From contig JAFGNV010000049.1 of the NCBI GenBank assembly GCA_016926805.1, positions 1-64,000 on the forward strand: DNA of 64,000 nt, read 5' to 3'. Origin of the DNA: Anaerolineae bacterium. Its GTDB lineage: Bacteria; Chloroflexota; Anaerolineae; 4572-78; J111. Both the position numbers and the translations under genes were made by a program. This document shows, piece by piece, positions 181 through 46,166 of the stretch (positions are counted from its first letter, which is position 1; the number at the start of each line of letters is the position of its first letter). The notes beneath the pieces were generated by a model. That model saw only the letters and a list, made by a program, of their open reading frames with translations. It did no database searches and had not been told where the DNA came from.

Positions 181-2832
181 TTAGCTCCGCAATCTGGCGC
201 CCAACTCCTGTTCCAGGCGTTTCACAATTTTGTCCTGCTGCCTGGCGACCACCTGGTCGGTGAGCGTGCGGTCTTTGGCCTGGAAGGTGAGACTGTAGGC
301 CAGGCTCTTTTTGCCCGCCCCAATTTGCTCGCCCCGGAACACATCGAACAACTGCACGTTCACCAACAACGGCTGGCCGGTTTGGCGGATGAGGGCCTGA
401 ACCTGATCTGCCGGGATACTCTCGTCAATCACAATAGCGATGTCCTGCTGCACCGCCGGGAAGCGCGAGACACCGTGGACCACGTGCAGTTCAGGTATTT
501 CGCACAACAACGTGTCCAGATCAAAATCGGCAGCCAAAACGGGCTGTTTTTCATCAACCTGAAACTCGTACGCCGCCACCACCAGCGGATGCAACTGCCC
601 CAGCACGCCTATGACCTTACCGTTGACCTGCAATTCCGCCACCCGACCCGGCTGATAGGTCCGGTGTTGGGTTGGAGTAAAAGTCACATGCTCAAAATGC
701 AGCCCGGCCAGCAACGATTCGACCACGCCCTTCAAATCGTAAAAATCAACCCCATGCCGGTCGGCGCCGGGCAGCCAGGTGTTTTCCTCACGGGGGCCGG
801 TCATCACGATGGCCAGACGAGTCGGCTCGTTGGGCAGAATGGCGGCTTCGCCTTCACTATCGGGTGGATGGGGCAGATAAATGTGCCCCACTTCAAACAG
901 TTGCACCCGGTCGTGATGTTTGGTGTTTTCAGCAGCCACGTCCAGCACGCTGTTGAGCAGGCTGTGGCGCATCGCGGCTCGTTCTGGCGTGGTAGGATTG
1001 GCCAGGGTGACATACCGGGCATTTGCCCCATATTCTGCGCCCAGCACCCGCGCCTCGGCTTCGGGCGTGGTCAGACGATAAGTGATGACTTCTTGCAGCC
1101 CGGCCTGCGCCAGCAGATCACGGGTGCGCTCTTCGCGGTCGAGCGAAAGGTTATTGCGTTGCGGCGGCAATTCGTCGGTGATTTCGGACACCGGGATGCG
1201 GTCGTAGCCGTAGATGCGGGCAATTTCTTCAATCAAATCGGCCCGGCCGGTAGCTGGTTCGCCGGAGATGTCCAGCCGGTGGTCGGGCACGATCACCCGA
1301 AAGGTTGAAGGCTGAGGGCTAAAGGAGGAAGGGCCGGCAGCATCCATAATTTCTTCAACCTTAAATTCCAACGACTCCAATATTCGTTTGATTTCGGCCG
1401 GTTCGATTTTGATCCCCAACAAACGGGTGACTTCGGCCTGGGGCAGGTCGATTACCACGGCTTCAGGCGGGTTGGGATAATAATCTAACAACCCTTCAAT
1501 GTTACCCCCGGCCAGGTCGACCATCAATTTGGCCCCGCGCAGCGCGCCGAGCATGGCCAGGCTGGGATGCACCCCCCGGCTGAAACGATAGCCCGCCTCG
1601 GATGCAATATTGAGCGCCTGGCTGGTGCGGCGAATATTGATAAAATCCCAGGCCGCCGCCTCGAGCAGGATGTTTTGGCTTTTCTCGCCGACTTCACTTT
1701 CGGCGCCGCCCATAATCCCGCCGATGCTGAGATTGCTCTTGGGGTCGGTCACCAGAATAGTGTAGCCGGGCATCTGGTGGGTTTTGTCATCCAGGGTCAG
1801 CACGGTTTCGCCCGGTTCGGCCAGCCGGGTGATGATTTTGACCGGTCCGTGCTCCCCCTTAGCGGGGGAATTGTATTCATCGGCGCGGCGGCGTAGCACC
1901 TCCCAATCGAAGGCATGATTGGGTTGGCCGGTTTCCAGCATGACGTAGTTGCTGATGTCCACAATGTTGTTGATCGGGCGCATTCCGGCCAGCCGCAGGC
2001 GGCGCCGCATCCAGTAGGGTGAGGGTTTGATCTCGATCCCCTTAATGAGGATGGCCACAAAGCGCGGGTTCAATTTTGGCTCGGTGGTTTCAATGGTTAG
2101 TCTGGATTCCAGCGACGGCAAGGATCCTTGGATATTTTCATCTGTAGGGTCATACGTGACAGATGTAATCCCCTCATTGCCGTGACACACTTCGGGATAG
2201 CGGATCTTTTGCCCGGTCAGCGCCGCCACCTCGCGGGCCACACCCAAAATGGAGGCGCAGCGGCTGAGGTTGGGGGTAATATCTATATCCAGCACCACGT
2301 CACCCCACAGGTCAACCAGGGGCGTGCCCGGTGGGGCGTTGTCATCGCACAGGATGATGCCGGTGTGATCATCGCTGAGGCCCAATTCCTTTTCCGAGCA
2401 GAGCATGTGGCGGTTCATAATGCCCCGGACTTCGCGGCCTTTGAGTTTCATTTTTGCGCCTGGTTCTTTGGCGTGACCGTCGTACACCGTGGCGCCCTCC
2501 ATCACAAAGGGCGATTTGAGGTCCAGGTGGCTGATGTCGCCCTGGCCGACGAACTCAAACAGATTGGGCGCGCCGGTGACCACGGTTTCCGGCGCGGCAG
2601 CGCCAATATCAACCGTGGCCAGCACCAAGCGGTCGGCGTTGGGGTGCTGCTCAACCTTGAGAATATGGCCCAGCACCAATTTATCGCGGTCCCAAACCAA
2701 ATCAGCCCCCTCCACGCCGATGTATTCAAGTGCGCCAACTTCCAGTCCGGCCAGGGTCATCCGTTCGGTCAGTTCTTTAAGGGGTAAGGTAATATCTACA
2801 AAATCTTTTAGCCAGCTAATGGGTACTTTCAT
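181..2832 (-). CDS. pheT: Phenylalanyl-tRNA synthetase beta subunit
   Basis: MKVPISWLKDFVDI N-terminus, tRNA-binding domain, B3/B4 and B5 domains, C-terminal FDX-ACB (VSRFPAVQQDIAIVID); adjacent to pheS. Confidence 0.97.
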   Translation of the reverse strand: MKVPISWLKDFVDITLPLKELTERMTLAGLEVGALEYIGVEGADLVWDRDKLVLGHILKVEQHPNADRLVLATVDIGAAAPETVVTGAPNLFEFVGQGDISHLDLKSPFVMEGATVYDGHAKEPGAKMKLKGREVRGIMNRHMLCSEKELGLSDDHTGIILCDDNAPPGTPLVDLWGDVVLDIDITPNLSRCASILGVAREVAALTGQKIRYPEVCHGNEGITSVTYDPTDENIQGSLPSLESRLTIETTEPKLNPRFVAILIKGIEIKPSPYWMRRRLRLAGMRPINNIVDISNYVMLETGQPNHAFDWEVLRRRADEYNSPAKGEHGPVKIITRLAEPGETVLTLDDKTHQMPGYTILVTDPKSNLSIGGIMGGAESEVGEKSQNILLEAAAWDFINIRRTSQALNIASEAGYRFSRGVHPSLAMLGALRGAKLMVDLAGGNIEGLLDYYPNPPEAVVIDLPQAEVTRLLGIKIEPAEIKRILESLEFKVEEIMDAAGPSSFSPQPSTFRVIVPDHRLDISGEPATGRADLIEEIARIYGYDRIPVSEITDELPPQRNNLSLDREERTRDLLAQAGLQEVITYRLTTPEAEARVLGAEYGANARYVTLANPTTPERAAMRHSLLNSVLDVAAENTKHHDRVQLFEVGHIYLPHPPDSEGEAAILPNEPTRLAIVMTGPREENTWLPGADRHGVDFYDLKGVVESLLAGLHFEHVTFTPTQHRTYQPGRVAELQVNGKVIGVLGQLHPLVVAAYEFQVDEKQPVLAADFDLDTLLCEIPELHVVHGVSRFPAVQQDIAIVIDESIPADQVQALIRQTGQPLLVNVQLFDVFRGEQIGAGKKSLAYSLTFQAKDRTLTDQVVARQQDKIVKRLEQELGARLRS

Positions 2833-2941: not shown

Positions 2942-3967
2942 CTAAAACTGCTCCAAAAACCGCAGGTCGTTGCCCCAGAAGTAGCGAATGTCCTCGATGC
3001 CGTGGCGGAGCATGGTGACCCGTTCCGGCCCCATACCAAAGGCGAAACCGCTATATTTGGTGGGGTCGTAGCCGCCGTTGCGCAGCACGTTGGGATGGAC
3101 CATGCCGCAGCCCAAAATCTCCAGCCAGCCGACATATTTACAGATGCGGCAGCCCTGGCCGTCGCACAAAAAACATTGCACGTCCATCTCTGCCGATGGT
3201 TCGGTGAAAGGAAAGTGGCTGGCGCGAAACCGCACCGGCCGTCCCTCACCGTAGAGCCGGTTGGTGAAGTTGATGAGCGTGCCCTTCAAATCACTAAAGC
3301 GAATGCCGGGACCCACGGCCAGCCCTTCCACCTGGTAGAATTGAATCTCCGAGCGGGCCGTAATCTGCTCGTGGCGATAACACATCCCGGGTAGAATGAC
3401 CCGGATCGATTCTGGGTAGCGTTCGCGCATCACCCGAATTTGGCCGGGCGAGGTGTGAGTTCTAAGGAGAACGTCGGGATTGGTGGTGTAGAAGGTGTCC
3501 TGCATCTCCCGGGCCGGGTGGTGCGGCGGGAAGTTGAGAAGCTGGAAGTTCATCTCGTCGGTTTCGACATCACGGCTGCGAAAAATTTGGAAGCCCATAT
3601 CGGCCCAAATCTGGTAGATGCGACGCAGGGTGTGGGTGCTGGGGTGCAATCGTCCTTGCGATACGGGTCGCCCCGGTAACGTCACGTCGAGGGCGTCTTT
3701 GGCCAGCGTTTGCTCCATCTCGGCAGCCTTTACCGTTTGGGTTTTTTGCTCGTAGGCAGCTTCCAGTTCTTGTCTTAGCTGGTTGGCCCGCTGGCCAAAG
3801 ACGGGGCGTTCCTCGCGGGGCAATTCGCCCACGCGCCGCAACATTTGGGTGAGTTCACCCTTGCGGCCAATGTATTGGCCATGCCACGCGTCAAGCGCGT
3901 CGCCTGTACCGAGTTGGGTCAATTCAGTCCGGGCGGTTTTGGCCAGGGTTTCGAGTTGGTTAAGCAT
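2942..3967 (-). CDS. pheS: Phenylalanyl-tRNA synthetase alpha subunit
   Basis: Class II aaRS motifs (HPAREMQDTFYT, GMGPERVTML); start taken at MLNQLETL with GAGGAGAAC upstream, rather than the longer ORF start at 4015. Confidence 0.96.
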   Translation of the reverse strand: MLNQLETLAKTARTELTQLGTGDALDAWHGQYIGRKGELTQMLRRVGELPREERPVFGQRANQLRQELEAAYEQKTQTVKAAEMEQTLAKDALDVTLPGRPVSQGRLHPSTHTLRRIYQIWADMGFQIFRSRDVETDEMNFQLLNFPPHHPAREMQDTFYTTNPDVLLRTHTSPGQIRVMRERYPESIRVILPGMCYRHEQITARSEIQFYQVEGLAVGPGIRFSDLKGTLINFTNRLYGEGRPVRFRASHFPFTEPSAEMDVQCFLCDGQGCRICKYVGWLEILGCGMVHPNVLRNGGYDPTKYSGFAFGMGPERVTMLRHGIEDIRYFWGNDLRFLEQF

Positions 3968-4049: not shown

Positions 4050-4084
4050 AATAAAAAGGGCGCAACCGGGAAGGGGTCGCGCCC
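4050..4084 (-). terminator. Attenuator terminator upstream of pheST
   Basis: Minus strand GGGCGCGACC-CCTTCCC-GGTTGCGCCC-TTTTTATTT; 10-bp stem with one G.U pair and a U tract; lies between the leader ORF and pheS. Confidence 0.88.
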
Positions 4085-4112
4085 TGGATGTGCTGAAACT
4101 GCCTATCCTGCC

Positions 4113-4283
4113 TTAACCTCCCACCAGGACACGCCACAACGCGCCGCTAAAAAAGAAAAAGAAGCTGGTAAAGGCAAAGGCAAACACAGCCAGCCAGGTA
4201 TTGCTGGCAGCATTATCTTCGGCTTTGGCGATGACTTCTACTTTTGGTTGATGTTTGAGCCATTGATAGAGTTGTTTTGACAT
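4113..4283 (-). CDS. Phe-rich leader peptide of pheST (56 aa from MSKQLYQW)
   Basis: GGAGAATATC-ATG start; contains VFAFAFTSFFFFFSGALWRVLVGG; promoter upstream, terminator then pheS downstream; matches the leader at 39163. Confidence 0.85.
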   Translation of the reverse strand: MSKQLYQWLKHQPKVEVIAKAEDNAASNTWLAVFAFAFTSFFFFFSGALWRVLVGG

Positions 4284-4306
4284 GATATTCTCCAACTATT
4301 GATGAC

Positions 4307-4335
4307 AATATAACATATTATGAGGGGCATGTCAA
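4307..4335 (-). promoter_or_regulatory. Sigma70-type promoter of the pheST leader
   Basis: TTGACA (4330-4335) - 17 bp - TATATT (4307-4312) on the minus strand. Confidence 0.8.
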
Positions 4336-4422: not shown

Positions 4423-4451
4423 TTGACATCTTCTGGCACAGAGCGTATAAT
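4423..4451 (+). promoter_or_regulatory. Sigma70-type promoter of the arsR-like operon
   Basis: TTGACA (4423-4428) - 17 bp - TATAAT (4446-4451). Confidence 0.8.
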
Positions 4452-4570: not shown

Positions 4571-4963
4571 ATGAGCAATCATCGACATCTTGATGAACAA
4601 ACCCTGGCTGAGGCCACGGCTGTACTCAAAGCCCTGGCCGACCCCAACCGCCTGCGGATTTTTGACCTGTTGATGCAGGGCGACTCGTGCAACTGCGAAC
4701 TCAACGAACAGCTAGGGCTGCCGCCCAACCTGCTGTCGCACCACCTGAACGTGTTGCGCAGGGCCGGGTTGATCAATAGTCGCCGTGATGTAGTGGATGG
4801 TCGCTGGATTTATTACGCTGTAGACCGCGATGGGGTCACCCGCTGGCAAAGTTGGTTTGGCCAATTTCTCGACCCGGCCCGGATTCAGGCGCGAGTTAAT
4901 CTTTGCGGGCCGGAAGGTCAACAGGCCAACATTATCGAGTCATCGCGCCTGGCGGTCGAATAG
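4571..4963 (+). CDS. ArsR/SmtB-family HTH transcriptional regulator
   Basis: ALADPNRLRIFDLLMQGDSCNCELNEQLGLPPNLLSHHLNVLRRAGLI winged HTH with a CxC metal/metalloid motif. Confidence 0.93.
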   Translation: MSNHRHLDEQTLAEATAVLKALADPNRLRIFDLLMQGDSCNCELNEQLGLPPNLLSHHLNVLRRAGLINSRRDVVDGRWIYYAVDRDGVTRWQSWFGQFLDPARIQARVNLCGPEGQQANIIESSRLAVE

Positions 4964-6490: not shown

Positions 6491-6727
6491 ATGACCAAAA
6501 AACTTCAAATTCTTGGTAGCGGCTGTTCTAATTGTCAAAAATTAGCCGCCCACGCCGAAGCGGCGGCTCAGGCGATGGGCCTGGAGTATGAACTGGAAAA
6601 AGTAACCGATGTCAACGAGATTACAAAATTTGGGGTGATGATGACTCCCGCCCTGGCCGTTGACGGTGAGGTAAAAGTTTCCGGCCGGATTCCCTCGGTT
6701 GACGAATTGAAAGGGATGCTGGCTTAA
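6491..6727 (+). CDS. Small thioredoxin-like redox-active disulfide protein
   Basis: KLQILGSGCSNCQKLAAHAEAAAQAMGLEYELEKVTD...MMTPALAVDGEVKVSGRIPS; CxxC and cis-Pro. Confidence 0.92.
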   Translation: MTKKLQILGSGCSNCQKLAAHAEAAAQAMGLEYELEKVTDVNEITKFGVMMTPALAVDGEVKVSGRIPSVDELKGMLA

Positions 6728-39106: not shown

Positions 39107-39135
39107 TTGACACTGCCTCTGTTCTGTGCTATGAT
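39107..39135 (+). promoter_or_regulatory. Sigma70-type promoter of the aro/tyr operon leader
   Basis: TTGACA (39107-39112) - 17 bp - TATGAT (39130-39135). Confidence 0.82.
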
Positions 39136-39162: not shown

Positions 39163-39348
39163 ATGCCCCATAACGTTCATCAACTTCAGAGAAACCAAAC
39201 CCACGGTCAGGTTATCGCTCAGGCCCATCCGGCTTTGAGCAATCTTTGGTTTTGGTTTGTCGCGCTCGCAGTTGTTTTTGCGGGTGCTTTTTATTTTTGG
39301 GGCTATTATTACTGGGCTTACCTTTGGCGCGTTCTGACCGGGGGCTGA
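39163..39348 (+). CDS. Phe/Tyr/Trp-rich leader peptide of the shikimate operon (61 aa)
   Basis: C-terminal NLWFWFVALAVVFAGAFYFWGYYYWAYLWRVLTGG contains 5 W, 5 F, 5 Y; followed by a terminator and the DAHP synthase gene. Confidence 0.86.
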   Translation: MPHNVHQLQRNQTHGQVIAQAHPALSNLWFWFVALAVVFAGAFYFWGYYYWAYLWRVLTGG

Positions 39349-39372
39349 TGTAGGTTTTCGGTGGATTTCACA

Positions 39373-39408
39373 GGGCGCGACCAAGAAAGGTTGCGCCCTT
39401 TTTATTTT
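39373..39408 (+). terminator. Attenuator terminator upstream of the DAHP synthase gene
   Basis: GGGCGCGACC-AAGAAA-GGTTGCGCCC-TTTTTATTTT; arms identical to those of the pheST attenuator. Confidence 0.9.
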
Positions 39409-39435: not shown

Positions 39436-40449
39436 ATGATTATCATCATGAAAATGAACACAGTTCAACAGAATATTGAGGCGGTTGTCAGCCGGGTTGA
39501 AAAAGCGGGCTTCCGGACTCACCTGTCGGTGGGTGAGGAACGAACCATTATCGGCGTGATTGGCGATGAGCGCAAGTTGGATCGCGGGGCTATCAGCCGG
39601 ATGGAGGGGGTTGATCGGGTTGTGCCGGTCTTGCGCCCTTTTAAACTGGCCAGCCGGGACTTTCAGCCGGAGGACTCAAAGATTTCGATCAATGGCCACG
39701 TGTTTGGTGACAAAAAGGTTATTGTAATGGCCGGCCCTTGCTCGGTGGAGAGCCTGGAGCAGATGCGAGAAACGGCAGTGGCAGTTAAAGAGGCCGGGGC
39801 GCATCTGTTGCGAGGCGGGGCCTTCAAACCGCGCACTTCACCGTACAGTTTCCAGGGCATGGGTGAAGAGGGACTAAAGATTTTAGCGCAAGTGCGTGAG
39901 GAAACCGGCCTGCACGTTATTACCGAAGTGATGGCCCCGGAACAGGTTGATCTGATCGCCCAATATGCCGACGTGCTGCAAATTGGCACCCGTAACATGC
40001 AAAATTACGCCTTGCTCAATGCGGTAGGGCAGAGCAACAAACCGGTTTTGCTAAAACGAGGGATGATGAGTACCATTGAAGAGTTGTTGATGAGCGCCGA
40101 ATACATCATGTCAAACGGCAATCACAAGGTGATTTTGTGCGAGCGAGGCATTCGCACTTTTGAGAAGTACACCCGCAATACCCTCGACATCAATGCTGTG
40201 CCCGTGTTGAAAGAATTAACCCATCTGCCCGTGGTGGTCGACCCCAGCCACGCTACCGGCAAGTGGACCCTGGTGAAAGCAGCCAGCAAGGCTGCCGTGG
40301 CTGCCGGAGCCGATGGCCTGATTATCGAGGTTCATCCCAATCCCGCCGAGGCTCTTAGCGACGGCGAACAATCGCTCAAACCGCACCGTTTTGTCGAGCT
40401 GATGAGCGAGGTCAGGCGGGTGGCTGAAGCCGTCGGCAGAACCATATAA
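39436..40449 (+). CDS. aroF: 3-deoxy-7-phosphoheptulonate (DAHP) synthase, type I-beta with N-terminal ferredoxin-like domain
   Basis: [73 protein letters not shown]. Confidence 0.96.
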
Positions 40450-40503
40450 CGGAGGTGCATCTTCGAACCTGCGTTTAGTCTGAAGGAGTCTCGAATCACC
40501 CTT

Positions 40504-41367
40504 GTGGGCCTGGGCTTGATGGGCGGCTCGCTGGCCCTGGCCTTGAAAGAGCGAAAACTTTGCCGTGAGGTGATCGCCCTGGTGCGGCGTGAGGAAGCTG
40601 CGCGTGAAGCCGAGCAGGCAGGCGTGGTTGACCGGGCCACCGTCGATCCGGCTGAGGCGCTGGGCGACGCCGATTTGGTTGTGTTTTGCACGCCGGTGCG
40701 AGTCATTGTGCGCCAACTGGCCGCCTTTGCGCCCTATTTTAAACCCGGCGCGGTAGTCACCGATATGGGCAGTACCAAACAAGAGATTGTGGCGGCCATG
40801 GCCTTATTGCCGGACAATGTCCACCCGATTGGTTCGCATCCGATGTGCGGCAAGGAACAGGCCGGTGTGAGCGCCGCCGAGACCACACTCTTTGAGGACG
40901 CCCCCTGGGTTTTGACGCCCCTAGATCGCACCCCGCCCGCCGCTACCCGCCTGGTGCAGGAATTGGCCGCCGCCGTTGGCGCTAAAACGCAACTTCTGGC
41001 CGCCGACCGTCACGACAAGTTGGTTGCTGCTATCAGCCATTTGCCCTACACCCTGGCCATCGCGTTGGTGCTTGTGGCCCGGCGAGTCGCCGAGGATGAC
41101 CTGGCGGTGTGGGACGTGGCCGCTTCCGGTTTTAGAGACACCTCTCGCGTGGCTGCGTCTGATGTGACCATGATGTTGGATATTTTGTTGACCAATCGCC
41201 AGGCCATCGGGCAGATGCTGGCTCTGGCCCAAACCCAACTCGACCGGTTGGCCCGGGCATTGGAAGCCGGCGATGAATCAACCCTGCGCATATTGCTGGA
41301 ACAGGCCGCCACCCGGCGTAAGCGATTATACCGATCAACGATAGCCGAGAAACAAACCGACGGCTAG
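40504..41367 (+). CDS. tyrA: Prephenate dehydrogenase (true start probably upstream, non-canonical)
   Basis: (RITLV)GLGLMGGSLALALKERKL Rossmann; DMGSTKQEIV, HPIGSHPMCGKEQAG; frame open upstream to 40459. Confidence 0.92.
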   Translation: MGLGLMGGSLALALKERKLCREVIALVRREEAAREAEQAGVVDRATVDPAEALGDADLVVFCTPVRVIVRQLAAFAPYFKPGAVVTDMGSTKQEIVAAMALLPDNVHPIGSHPMCGKEQAGVSAAETTLFEDAPWVLTPLDRTPPAATRLVQELAAAVGAKTQLLAADRHDKLVAAISHLPYTLAIALVLVARRVAEDDLAVWDVAASGFRDTSRVAASDVTMMLDILLTNRQAIGQMLALAQTQLDRLARALEAGDESTLRILLEQAATRRKRLYRSTIAEKQTDG

Positions 41368-41378
41368 TTCTTTTTGCT

Positions 41379-41409
41379 CTGTTACCCTGTTACCCTGTTA
41401 CCCTGTTAC
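41379..41409 (+). repeat. Tandem octamer repeat (CTGTTACC)x4, last copy partial
   Basis: CTGTTACC CTGTTACC CTGTTACC CTGTTAC between tyrA stop and aroA start. Confidence 0.9.
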
Positions 41410-41425
41410 TTGGAGGATAACCACC

Positions 41426-42739
41426 TTGAAGCTTATCGTTCGTCCAAGCAAAGCCCTCAAGGGCTGTGTGACCGTTCCGGGCGACAAATCCATTTCTCAC
41501 CGCACCCTGATCCTGGGCGCAATGGCCGAAGGCGAGACCATTGCCCGCAATTGGCTCAACGCGGGCGTCACCGAACGTATGGTAGATTGTATCCGGGCTT
41601 TGGGTATCGAGGTTAAGGTTGACCCCACCGGCCCGGGTCGAGCGACGCTTACCGTGCACGGGCGAGGGTTGTACGGTTTCACCTCACCTTCCAGACCGCT
41701 CTTCTGTGGCGGATCGGCCACCACCATGCGGCTGCTGATGGGGTTGCTGGCCACCCAACCCTTTACCGCCACCCTCGACGGTCACGAAGGATTGCGCCGC
41801 CGCCCTATGGAGCGGATTGCCCAACCGCTGCGGCAAATGGGAGCCGTAGTCAACACCACCGACGGCCACGCTCCCATCACCATTACCGGCGGCCGGTTGG
41901 CCGCCCTTGATTATCAATTACCCGTCGCCAGCGCCCAGTTGCAGACCTCACTGCTGCTGGCGGCGCTTGGCGCGGAAGGGCAGATGAGGCTGCGCCAACC
42001 CGGCCCGGCCCGTGACCATACCCTGCGGATGTTGCAAGGAATGGGCGCGGAAATCAACGAAGTTGATGGCGTCATCACCTTTAATCCCGAACGGTTCACC
42101 CTAAAACCACTCAACTTTACGATCTCGGGCGACATGTCCGCTGCCGCCTTTCTATTGGTGGCGGGTCTCATTGTGCCGGAGAGTAAGGTCGAGATAGAGG
42201 GAGTCAACACAAATTATACCCGTACCGGACTGCTGGAAGTGTTACAGAAGATGGGGGGACAAATTGTAACAAGCACAGAGCATCTTGAAGCAGGGGAGCC
42301 GATGGCCAACATAAGCGTATCGACCAGTGAGCTGCACGGCACCGAAGTCGGTGGGGAGGTGGTGGTGCGGATGATCGACGAATTCCCGATTTTTGTGGTC
42401 GCTGCGTTGCAGGCTTGCGGCAAGACCCTGGTGTGCGAGGCAACTGAACTGCGAGCCAAGGAGAGTGACCGGATTCAAGTGGTTGTTGAGGAGTTTGGCA
42501 AGTTGGGGGCCAACATTGTGGCTCACCCCGATGGCTTTGAAATCGACGGGCCACAATTGCTCACCGGAACCACGGTGCAGAGCCGTCGCGACCACCGGCT
42601 GGCGATGTCGCTGGCGGTGGCTGGCTTGGTAGCCAGGGGCGAAACCATTGTTGAGGATGCGGAAGAGTTACAAGAAAGTTTTCCGGGTTTTGTGGAAACG
42701 TTGCAAACGTTAGGCGCAGAAGTCGAGTGGGCCGGATGA
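41426..42739 (+). CDS. aroA: 3-phosphoshikimate 1-carboxyvinyltransferase (EPSP synthase), TTG start
   Basis: VPGDKSISHRTLILGAMAEGETI; FCGGSATTMRLLMGLLA; RAKESDRIQVVVEEFGKLGA; DHRLAMSLAVAGL. Confidence 0.96.
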   Translation: MKLIVRPSKALKGCVTVPGDKSISHRTLILGAMAEGETIARNWLNAGVTERMVDCIRALGIEVKVDPTGPGRATLTVHGRGLYGFTSPSRPLFCGGSATTMRLLMGLLATQPFTATLDGHEGLRRRPMERIAQPLRQMGAVVNTTDGHAPITITGGRLAALDYQLPVASAQLQTSLLLAALGAEGQMRLRQPGPARDHTLRMLQGMGAEINEVDGVITFNPERFTLKPLNFTISGDMSAAAFLLVAGLIVPESKVEIEGVNTNYTRTGLLEVLQKMGGQIVTSTEHLEAGEPMANISVSTSELHGTEVGGEVVVRMIDEFPIFVVAALQACGKTLVCEATELRAKESDRIQVVVEEFGKLGANIVAHPDGFEIDGPQLLTGTTVQSRRDHRLAMSLAVAGLVARGETIVEDAEELQESFPGFVETLQTLGAEVEWAG

Positions 42740-42773
42740 CCCAAATAAAATCCTCCAGACAGGAATCAATCTC

Positions 42774-43649
42774 GTGATGAGCCAACCAATTACAAGTAAG
42801 ACTGCTCTGGTGGGGGTGATGGGCTGGCCGCTGGAACACAGCCTCAGCCCGGCCATGCACAATGCCGCCTTTGCCGAGCTGGGTATCGACTGGGCCTATC
42901 TACCCCTGCCGGTTCAACCGGGCGCTGTGGAACAGGCGCTTAGGGGGTTGATGGCCCTGAACTTCGTCGGTACCAACGTGACCGTGCCCCACAAACAGGC
43001 GGTGATGCGTTATATGGACGAATTGAGCGATGCGGCTCAGATTACCGGGGCGGTCAACACCGTTTACATTCAAGACGGTAAATTTATTGGTTCCAACACC
43101 GACCCTGCCGGTTTTTTGGACTCGTTGCGGGAGGCTGGGTGTCACCCCCGGGGTATGCGGGTGGCGGTATTGGGCGCGGGCGGCGCGGCGCGGGCAGTGG
43201 TATTTGCGCTGGCCCGGGCCGAAGCAGACTCGGTGGTAGTCTTCAATCGCACCGCTCAGCGGGCCGCCTTTCTGGTGGACGACCTGGCTGATGCTTTCCC
43301 CGACAGCCGTTTGAGTTTTGAGGCCCTCACCCAAAAAGCTCTAGCCGTTCTGGGGAGTGACGTGGATTTGGTGGTCAATACCACCTCGGTGGGGATGTAC
43401 CCTCACGTCGATACCTGTCCCTGGCCGGAGGGGGTGCCGATTCCGGCCAACGTCCTTTTTTATGATCTGGTTTACAATCCCCTGGAAACTACGTTCCTGG
43501 CCCGTGCCCGCGCTGCTGGGGCTAGGGCTATTGATGGTTTGGGGATGTTGGTTCATCAAGGCGCGTTGTCTCTTAAAATGTGGACCGGCCACTCCGCGCC
43601 GGTGGGCGTTATGCGAGACGCTTGTTTGAGAGGGTTGGGCATAAAATAA
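42774..43649 (+). CDS. aroE: Shikimate dehydrogenase
   Basis: GVMGWPLEHSLSPAMHNAAFAELGIDWAYLPLPV; NVTVPHKQAVM; GAGGAARAVVFAL; NTTSVGMYP. Confidence 0.96.
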   Translation: MMSQPITSKTALVGVMGWPLEHSLSPAMHNAAFAELGIDWAYLPLPVQPGAVEQALRGLMALNFVGTNVTVPHKQAVMRYMDELSDAAQITGAVNTVYIQDGKFIGSNTDPAGFLDSLREAGCHPRGMRVAVLGAGGAARAVVFALARAEADSVVVFNRTAQRAAFLVDDLADAFPDSRLSFEALTQKALAVLGSDVDLVVNTTSVGMYPHVDTCPWPEGVPIPANVLFYDLVYNPLETTFLARARAAGARAIDGLGMLVHQGALSLKMWTGHSAPVGVMRDACLRGLGIK

Positions 43650-43661
43650 ACGTCAGGAGAG

Positions 43662-44918
43662 ATGATGGAAATATTAGGCGGCCCCCTATTTGGCGTTGCC
43701 GGAGCCGGTGAGTCCCATGGCCCGGCCATCACGACCATTGTTTTTGGCTGCCCGCCAGGGCTGCGCCTCTCGCGCCAGGAGGTGCAACAATATCTAGACC
43801 GGCGTCGCCCCGGCAGCAGCAAACACGGCACGCCGCGTAGCGAGGGGGATAGAGTTGTTTTTTTGGCCGGACTTTATGCCGAAGGTGAGCTTAACCGGCT
43901 GCTGTCCGGCCCAAACCTCCAGGTTCAGGTTGAGGATCAGACCCATCACACCGAAACCTACGAGGAAGGTTTCACCACCGGCGAACCGATTGCCGCGGTG
44001 GTGTTGTCAACCTCCCAAAAATCGCGGCATTACGAGCAATTTGCCGGACCAATCGGCGCCGTCCGGCCCGGCCACACCGACCTGGTGAAGTATCACCAGT
44101 CCGGAGGTTTTGGCGATATTCGCGGCGGTGGGCGTTCCAGCTACCGCTCCACCATCTCCGACGTGATCGGCGGGTCCATTGCCCGCATTTTTCTGAGGGA
44201 GCATTTTGGTACGGTGATTCTATCGTCTATTTGCCAGGTGGGTCCGCTTACTGCCAGCCAGCGCCTGGCTGGCGAGGTTGAGCAGCTTGTCCGGCAGGCG
44301 TCAGGCCAGGCCGTCCCGCTGAACAAGATTGCTATCATCGAGGAGCGGCTGGCTAACGCCGAAATCCGCACCCTTGATATCGACTTTATCCGCGCGGCGA
44401 CGGCGTTGATTAAGGAAACTCGCAAGCAGGGCGACTCGATTGGCGCGGCGGTGGAGGTGGTAGCGGTCAATGTGCCGCCTCTGGTGGGCGAACCGCTCTA
44501 CCAGAGTTTGAAGCTGCGGCTGATGGGGTCCCTGGGTGGGCTGCATGCGGCCCAATTCTGTGAAGTAGGGGCCGGGGTTGAGGTGGTCCAGCGCCACGGC
44601 AGCGAAAACAACGATCCCATTCGCCGCGCCGGGTATCAGGCCAACAGCCACGGTGGAATGATCGGGGGTATCACCACTGGCATGCCGCTGGTGTGTCGCG
44701 TAGGTTTCAAACCGACCTCGTCCATTGTCAAACCCCAGCAATCGGTGCGTAAGAATTTGGAAGAGATTAACTTTAGGCTTGAAAAAGGCCGACACGACCC
44801 CTGCGTGGGCGTGCGGTCCGGGATCACCCTGGAGTCCCGTATGGCCATTGAGTTGATGAATGCGGTGTTGATGCACCAGGCGCGGCAGGTGGATGTGGAT
44901 AATTTTAAGCTGTTTTAG
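43662..44918 (+). CDS. aroC: Chorismate synthase
   Basis: GVAGAGESHGPAITTIVFGCPPGL; RPGHTDLVKYHQSGGFGDIRGGGRSSYRST; PTSSIVKPQQSV; RHDPCVGVR. Confidence 0.95.
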   Translation: MMEILGGPLFGVAGAGESHGPAITTIVFGCPPGLRLSRQEVQQYLDRRRPGSSKHGTPRSEGDRVVFLAGLYAEGELNRLLSGPNLQVQVEDQTHHTETYEEGFTTGEPIAAVVLSTSQKSRHYEQFAGPIGAVRPGHTDLVKYHQSGGFGDIRGGGRSSYRSTISDVIGGSIARIFLREHFGTVILSSICQVGPLTASQRLAGEVEQLVRQASGQAVPLNKIAIIEERLANAEIRTLDIDFIRAATALIKETRKQGDSIGAAVEVVAVNVPPLVGEPLYQSLKLRLMGSLGGLHAAQFCEVGAGVEVVQRHGSENNDPIRRAGYQANSHGGMIGGITTGMPLVCRVGFKPTSSIVKPQQSVRKNLEEINFRLEKGRHDPCVGVRSGITLESRMAIELMNAVLMHQARQVDVDNFKLF

Positions 44919-44930
44919 GATGTATCGGTT

Positions 44931-46166
44931 ATGATGAATCCAATGACCATCGATGAACAGGTTGACCTGCTCATGCAGGGCACCGAATACGGTGACGATC
45001 AAACCAGAGTCAATATGGCCGGTGAACTGCGCCAACGTCTCCTTGAGTCGGAGCGGGAGGGACGCCCCTTGCGCGTGTATTGTGGTTACGATCCCCGCAC
45101 GGCGGATCTGCACATTGGTCATACCATCACCATGCGCAAGCTGTGCCAGTTCCAGAAATTGGGTCACGAGGTGACGTTCTTGGTTGGCAGTTACACCAGT
45201 CTGGTGGGCGATCCCAGCGATCATGATAAAACTCGGCCCGTGCTGACCGAAACCGAGGTGGAGGCCAACGCCCGAACGTATGCGGCCCAGGCCTTCAGAA
45301 TATTGGATCCGGAGAAAACGCAGGTGCGTCACAATGGTGAGTGGTTGAGTAAATTGAGGTTGGTTGATCTGATTCGGTTGGCCCAAAATTTTACCGTCCA
45401 ACAATTTCTGAACCGCGAGAATTTTGCCAAACGGTTGGCCCAAAACGAGCCGATTTTCCTGCACGAGACCTTTTACGCCTTGATGCAGGGTTACGATGCG
45501 GTGGCCCAACAAGCCGAGGTGCAAGTCGGCGGCACCGACCAGCTTTTTAATATTCTGGTGGCAGGCCGTAAGCTGCAGGCGGCAATGGGTCAGAAACCGC
45601 AGGTGGCTATTGTTATGGGCCTGCTGCCCGGCACCGATGGCGTGGTAAAAATGTCTAAAAGTTTGGGCAACCACATTCCCATTTCGGCGCCGCCGGAGGA
45701 TATGTACGGCAAAGTGATGAGCATCCCCGATTTTGCCATGCCGGTCTACTTCAGGCTGGCGACGCGCTATACTCCGGCCCAGGTAGCCACAGTCGAGACG
45801 GCCCTGGCAGATAACTCGCGGCATCCCCGCGACGTGAAGATGGAACTGGCCCGCGAGATTGTGAGCATTTTTTATGGCGAGCAAGCCGCAACCGAGGCGG
45901 AGCGACATTTCATTCGCGTCTTTCAACAACAGCAGTTGCCGGAAGCGATGCCCGAATTTCAGCTTGCTCAATCAACTAACCTTGTCGACCTGATGGCTCA
46001 GGCCGGTCTGGCCCCCAGCAAAAGTGAAGCCCGTCGTTTGATTCAACAGGGCGGCGTGCGGGTTGATGGCCGGCGGGTCGAAGACATTGCTCAAATGGTT
46101 GAACCCGGTGATGGTTCGGTCATCCAGGTTGGTAAGCGAAAATTCCTGCGGGTGACATCTGGTTAA
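44931..46166 (+). CDS. tyrS: Tyrosyl-tRNA synthetase
   Basis: YCGYDPRTADLHIGHTITMRKLCQFQKLGHEVTFLVG; KMSKSLGNHI; C-terminal S4 domain. Confidence 0.95.
   Translation: MMNPMTIDEQVDLLMQGTEYGDDQTRVNMAGELRQRLLESEREGRPLRVYCGYDPRTADLHIGHTITMRKLCQFQKLGHEVTFLVGSYTSLVGDPSDHDKTRPVLTETEVEANARTYAAQAFRILDPEKTQVRHNGEWLSKLRLVDLIRLAQNFTVQQFLNRENFAKRLAQNEPIFLHETFYALMQGYDAVAQQAEVQVGGTDQLFNILVAGRKLQAAMGQKPQVAIVMGLLPGTDGVVKMSKSLGNHIPISAPPEDMYGKVMSIPDFAMPVYFRLATRYTPAQVATVETALADNSRHPRDVKMELAREIVSIFYGEQAATEAERHFIRVFQQQQLPEAMPEFQLAQSTNLVDLMAQAGLAPSKSEARRLIQQGGVRVDGRRVEDIAQMVEPGDGSVIQVGKRKFLRVTSG

Follow-up and report, generated by a model that had tools for sequence, protein, structure and literature searches.

The leader of the pheST operon most likely acts as a ribosome-mediated transcription attenuator that reads the supply of charged tRNA-Phe, and judging from the sequence of the locus and its relatives we put the probability of this reading at roughly 0.9. 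On the minus strand of the window, the whole 64,000-nucleotide stretch of Anaerolineae DNA that was analysed, a promoter, a GGAG, a leader ORF, a terminator, and pheS-pheT follow each other in this order. The promoter, TTGACA-17-TATATT with an extended TG -10 (4335-4307), matches the consensus at 11 of 12 positions, and the GGAG at 4293-4290 would serve as Shine-Dalgarno sequence for the ORF at 4283-4113, whose translation gives a Phe-rich peptide of 56 residues (MSKQLYQWLKHQPKVEVIAKAEDNAASNTWLAVFAFAFTSFFFFFSGALWRVLVGG) that is also recognised by profile matches. Eight Phe are found among the last 28 residues, all within the twelve putative sensing codons FAFAFTSFFFFF (4184-4149), which end in FFFFF (4163-4149). 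The intrinsic terminator, AGGGCGCGACCCCTTCCCGGTTGCGCCCT plus TTTTTATTT, lies between the ORF and pheS, has an 11-bp stem at 4085-4057 (-20.7 kcal/mol) and extends through the U tract to 4048. The genes behind it on the same strand are pheS (2942..3967; TIGR00468, 308 bits) and pheT (181..2832; TIGR00472, 647 bits). The sequence-only reading, which had proposed attenuation, was right to the base about the coordinates and residues of the ORF, and its Phe counts, promoter, Shine-Dalgarno sequence, terminator and target genes all hold. It had put the promoter some 17 nt before the point where the RNA is expected to begin; this would be an unusual distance, and 17 is the length of the promoter spacer. 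On the other strand, a perfect sigma-70 consensus promoter (12/12) at 4423-4451(+) serves a divergent ArsR-type gene at 4571, followed by genes for a permease and for a small thioredoxin-like protein (6491-6727).

What we infer from this arrangement, namely ribosome stalling, termination or antitermination, and the sense of the response, is the following. RNA polymerase would start just 3' of the promoter, and a ribosome would trail it on the leader ORF. With ample Phe-tRNA the ribosome would reach the stop codon (4113) and mask the WRVL codons (4136-4123), so that the 5' arm of the terminator stays free, the terminator forms, and transcription ends near 4050. With scarce Phe-tRNA the ribosome would stall within the Phe run and leave the WRVL segment exposed, which could then grab the 5' arm of the terminator before the 3' arm has been made, resulting in readthrough into pheST.

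The predicted antiterminator, an element that the sequence-only reading had not named, is the pairing of the WRVL+ codons (TGGCGTGTCCTGGT, 4136-4123, minus strand) with the 5' arm of the terminator, for which -20.5 kcal/mol are calculated. In most leaders the best partner of the 5' arm is formed by the codons between about -24 and -11, counted from the end of the stop codon, and these codons are WRVL in most of the family. The aromatic run is located at about -60 to -39 from the same point. By position, the footprint of a ribosome at the stop codon covers the antiterminator, and that of a ribosome in the aromatic run leaves it uncovered. Masking of the antiterminator by the finishing ribosome is thus predicted by the model, and a run of cognate codons is seen both in the pheST leader (8 Phe in 12 codons) and in a sister leader before an aro operon (Phe, Tyr, and Trp). 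Because equilibrium folds of whole leaders mostly show the terminator, the pairing model was applied to transcripts ending at the terminator loop. In these, the 5' arm is predicted to pair with upstream RNA at 0.5-1.0 when the ribosome is stalled, and mostly at 0-0.3 when it is at the stop codon, the exceptions being L010, L065, L004, L005, and L012 with 0.46-0.63. At the pheST locus the modelled antiterminator forms only when the ribosome stalls at the last Phe codons. As for a pause or protector (1:2) hairpin, the antiterminator strand of this leader is predicted to pair upstream at 0.80 if there is no ribosome, which is not the case in its nearest relative, L002, and the antiterminators of L012, L013, L043, and L067 are weak.

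That the pairing itself has been selected is suggested by the comparison of lineages. In the sister family f3 the terminator sequences are quite different and the antiterminators are altered to match. When terminator arms are exchanged between lineages, pairing becomes weaker by about 4-7 kcal/mol (f1a, -17.0 against about -12 after the swap; f3, -16.7 against about -9.6). In L014 the 3' end of the ORF is frameshifted and the peptide WRVL is gone, with the TGGCGCGTTCTGA nucleotides retained. The matching changes in f3, the cost of the swaps, and the frameshift of L014 can all be read as signs of selection on RNA pairing. At single loci the antiterminator does not stand out from synonymous recoding: the null was not beaten at pheST (P=0.11), and the values for the other loci range from 0.008 to 0.79, most of them not significant, since the residues by themselves call for GC-rich codons. 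In addition, the complete terminator wins in the full-length equilibrium fold, and therefore the switch must be kinetic. Given these single-locus nulls and the equilibrium fold, the argument for the antiterminator draws on how the lineages compare and on kinetic order.

The sister leader is found in the same window, 35 kb from the pheST leader. The peptide profile identified a homologous Phe/Tyr/Trp-rich peptide of 61 residues (39163..39348, plus strand) with its own promoter (TTGACA-17-TATGAT, extended -10; 39107..39135), a putative antiterminator strand TGGCGCGTTCTGACC (39325..39339), and an intrinsic terminator with a T-rich tail (39372..39408) that is almost identical to that of pheST. The leader ends about 90 nt 5' of a DAHP synthase gene, the first of an operon (39436..46166, plus strand) that continues with tyrA, aroA, aroE, aroC, and tyrS, encoding prephenate dehydrogenase, EPSP synthase, shikimate dehydrogenase, chorismate synthase, and tyrosyl-tRNA synthetase. 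The named records that best match this DAHP synthase place the organism in the Anaerolineae (Chloroflexota). By their sequences, the two leaders are of common descent, and the second is probably a sister attenuator for the common aromatic pathway, its codons covering all three end products. Only four places in the six frames of the 64 kb have a stretch of 16 residues with at least seven Phe or at least nine aromatics, and two of these are the two leaders. The two leader terminators are also the top two sites with a hairpin and a T-tract among the 80 T-tracts of the window, and their pattern matches exactly two sites in the 5.34-Mb genome, one behind each leader, with none in the reversed control.

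Clear homologs of the leader were found among close relatives only. With the peptide as query, 61 genomes yielded homologs in six further members of the same family and in no more distant genome, a profile search found them in 11 of the 12 genomes of the family, and across 396 genomes of the class the profile gave no clear homolog outside the order. L028 was rejected as a chance match within a long frame; L029-L032 are weak profile matches, mostly in long frames. By scanning 5' of pheS and DAHP synthase across the order we gathered 22 leaders, seven of pheS-type (one of them, L006, placed by inference) and 15 of aro-type, and all 22 have an intrinsic terminator after the ORF. In the densest window of 16 residues the ratio of Phe to Tyr to Trp is 42:3:8 in the pheS-type and 55:48:33 in the aro-type leaders, a contrast with P of about 4e-6, calculated from sequences that are related. 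Since the two types differ in this way, the peptide matches what the genes after the leader require. The sequence-only reading had considered that homologs keeping the peptide but losing the terminator and the linkage to pheS would speak against attenuation. The terminator is kept in 17 of 17 leaders of the family, and the linkage to pheS has in part been swapped for an aromatic-pathway operon together with matching changes of the codons. Ribosome-mediated attenuation is supported by the run of Phe codons, by the terminator with cognate genes downstream, and by the conservation of the arrangement in several genera. A leader is lacking before some pheS genes of the family (L066, L068, and L070), and the tree of leader peptides does not distinguish a single from a multiple origin of the pheS leaders. 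Behind L006 (genome G004), which was assigned to the pheS-type by its sequence and its position in the tree, a VapBC-like toxin-antitoxin pair extends up to the end of the contig, and at L067 (G006) leader and pheS are separated by an MNT-type nucleotidyltransferase gene. Toxin-antitoxin genes may have been inserted repeatedly behind the Phe attenuator.

The sister leader differs from the pheST leader by a hairpin inside the ORF. Of the 15 aro-type leaders, 13 contain a hairpin of 26 nt and eight to nine pairs that runs exactly up to TTTTTATTTT, with the same reading frame; in the window it comprises GCGCTCGCAGTTGTTTTTGCGGGTGC followed by TTTTTATTTTT, the codons F-Y-F (39262..39298, plus strand). 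Covariation is seen at pair 1 (A-T/G-C), pair 4 (C-G/T-A), and pair 9 (at least three types), and the hairpin is kept between the families f1 and f3 despite differing residues (T-L-A..A-G-V versus A-F-A..V-N-A). Synonymous recoding of the upstream codons gave P values of 0.0025-0.15 in these 13 leaders, about half of them below 0.05, noting that the sequences are not independent and that another hairpin was scored for L017. Among the 80 T-tracts of the window, this copy ranks fourth in strength as a site with a hairpin and a T-tract, and it was also chosen by the consensus scan. In the pheS-type leaders an internal hairpin is not significant (P 0.09-0.59), and no clear counterpart was found in the pheST leader at 4283-4113 (P=0.14). 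The aro leaders carry the intragenic hairpin in the pause/protector (1:2) slot instead. This hairpin resembles an intrinsic terminator, or else a pause site giving the ribosome time to close up on the polymerase, a role that has been proposed for the hisL pause (PMC9291695). In the model, most aro leaders would form the antiterminator if there were no ribosome, and therefore a translation checkpoint would make sense. We tentatively propose, as an idea that falls somewhat short of even odds, an attenuator with two checkpoints: a terminator or strong pause inside the aro ORF, with the Phe-Tyr-Phe codons as its U-tract, would stop or hold polymerases lacking a close ribosome before the sensed codons, and only coupled transcription would reach the second, amino-acid-sensing terminator. 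The pheST leader would be a relative with Phe-only codons and no clear internal hairpin. The intragenic hairpin may possibly represent a new form of attenuator.

Concerning the peptide, the pheST leader is long for the class of leader-peptide attenuators; the PheM leader of Escherichia coli has 14 residues. The pheS and aro leaders have the N-terminal motif MSKxLxxLxKNQxxVKVxA in common, and at codons 2-23 dN is 0.06 compared to a dS of 0.95 in the closest pair, with dN below dS in 13 of 13 pairs. This conservation at the amino-acid level is seen in L001-L007, L010, and L014-L017. The N-terminal half is, by these substitution patterns, under amino-acid selection, which classical attenuation does not need. 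The ORF could accordingly be a small membrane protein with a charged cytosolic N-terminus and one transmembrane helix that is co-transcribed by chance, the terminator merely ending its gene, and besides the purifying selection on codons 2-23 the hydrophobic segment following the charged N-terminus fits this picture. However, the leader has no match in Pfam or NCBIfam, its homologs precede pheS or the DAHP synthase operon wherever the contig shows downstream genes (except for L006), the aromatic residues track the downstream pathway, and L014 has a frameshifted C-terminus with the nucleotides kept, so that a membrane protein is very unlikely. The long peptide of an attenuator could also have gained a second role, for which peTrpL, a leader peptide acting in trans, is a precedent (PMC7298713), or the N-terminus could tune the movement of the ribosome or membrane targeting during sensing. 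Such a dual role would combine the selected and conserved N-terminal half with the evidence for attenuation, and is a refinement of the attenuator reading whose confidence overlaps with it. However, f2 and f3, the sister families, have leaders that keep the attenuator without this N-terminus, and the selection is measured on only 22 codons, few pairs, and small counts, and we consider a dual role conceivable but rather doubtful. The long conserved peptide might also point to arrest by the nascent peptide on sensing Phe, or the control might be exerted by Rho, in both cases instead of codon-dependent stalling. But by the time codons 40-45 are read, the conserved residues 1-23 should already have reached or passed the exit of the tunnel, the sensing region varies freely apart from its aromatic content, and an intrinsic terminator is always present. 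These mechanisms are therefore most improbable compared to codon-dependent attenuation.

The genome does use leader RNAs of another kind. T-boxes above the Rfam cut-off precede valS, serS, trpE, and thrS, and that of a trpB-like gene is just below the cut-off (L162-L166). With T-boxes on trpE and synthetases and leader peptides on aro and pheST, two sensing systems coexist. A T-box or another tRNA- or metabolite-binding leader RNA in place of leader translation could thus be imagined at pheST too. However, the pheST leader has no match above noise to the described leader families (E up to 5, 4227 Rfam families), no T-box was found in it and pheST is not among the targets of the five T-boxes of the genome, and it is a conserved ORF with cognate codons. 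The chance that such an RNA operates here is negligible. The attenuator might be bypassed, since a block following the pheST terminator (ACTTGTCTCACAAGGCAAGATAGACTATGATATGG, 4039-4011, minus strand) reads TTGTCT-17-TATGAT and may be a second promoter. It is kept, identical or close, in four genomes, and an inverted repeat (CTTGT..ACAAG) spans its first hexamer.

The mechanism itself is a known one and would work like the E. coli pheMST, trp, and his attenuators, and the leader family has no described homolog in Rfam as far as our comparison reached. In E. coli, pheM encodes the leader peptide that controls pheMST by attenuation (PMC9291695). Both systems comprise a leader with Phe codons, an intrinsic terminator, and pheS-pheT as targets. 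The pheST leader described here, however, has 56 residues, belongs to another phylum without detectable homology of RNA or peptide, is homologous to the leader of an aro operon, and is followed by the extra promoter-like block. With the trp and leu attenuators of Proteobacteria and Actinobacteria (PMC1262725) it shares the cognate codon run near the end of the ORF, one RNA strand common to antiterminator and terminator, and an antiterminator that a finishing ribosome would mask. In contrast to these, a single leader family in Chloroflexota precedes two operons with retuned codons, and its aro members have the terminator-like hairpin in the ORF before the sensed codons. A survey from 2010 described leader-peptide attenuators as known from Proteobacteria and Actinobacteria only, and added the Firmicutes (PMC2965389). 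The His leaders of hisZ and hisS* reported there resemble our case in being outside Proteobacteria and Actinobacteria, in preceding paralogous genes with similar leaders, and in belonging to groups that also use T-boxes, but differ in amino acid, phylum, and sequence. A literature search covering few subscription papers did not reveal a Chloroflexota attenuator of this kind.

In other Anaerolineae, short Phe leaders with terminators are found before pheS (e.g. L169, L175, and L185) and, in the wider scan with DAHP synthase as query, short aromatic-rich leaders with terminators before aro operons (L093-L106 and L113-L115). L133, L146, L150, and L156 go with the latter set, which spans Anaerolineae and records named Syntrophus and Deltaproteobacteria. 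These leaders agree with the present family in position, codon logic, and the terminator after the ORF, but are mostly shorter (about 28-65 residues as called) and unrelated in sequence, and the intragenic hairpin was not found in them. As mostly short and unrelated aromatic leaders occur at the same places, the mechanism appears to be widespread in the class, and this family would be its long-leader version, used twice. Within one genome, one leader family would thus serve two operons with codons for one or for all three aromatic amino acids, and the pair of pheST and aro leaders would represent a clean natural case of the copying and retuning of an attenuator. The aro homologue, which has codons for each of the three end products, offers a natural test of codon specificity, and its hairpin would provide a simple test of whether an attenuator also checks the coupling of transcription and translation.
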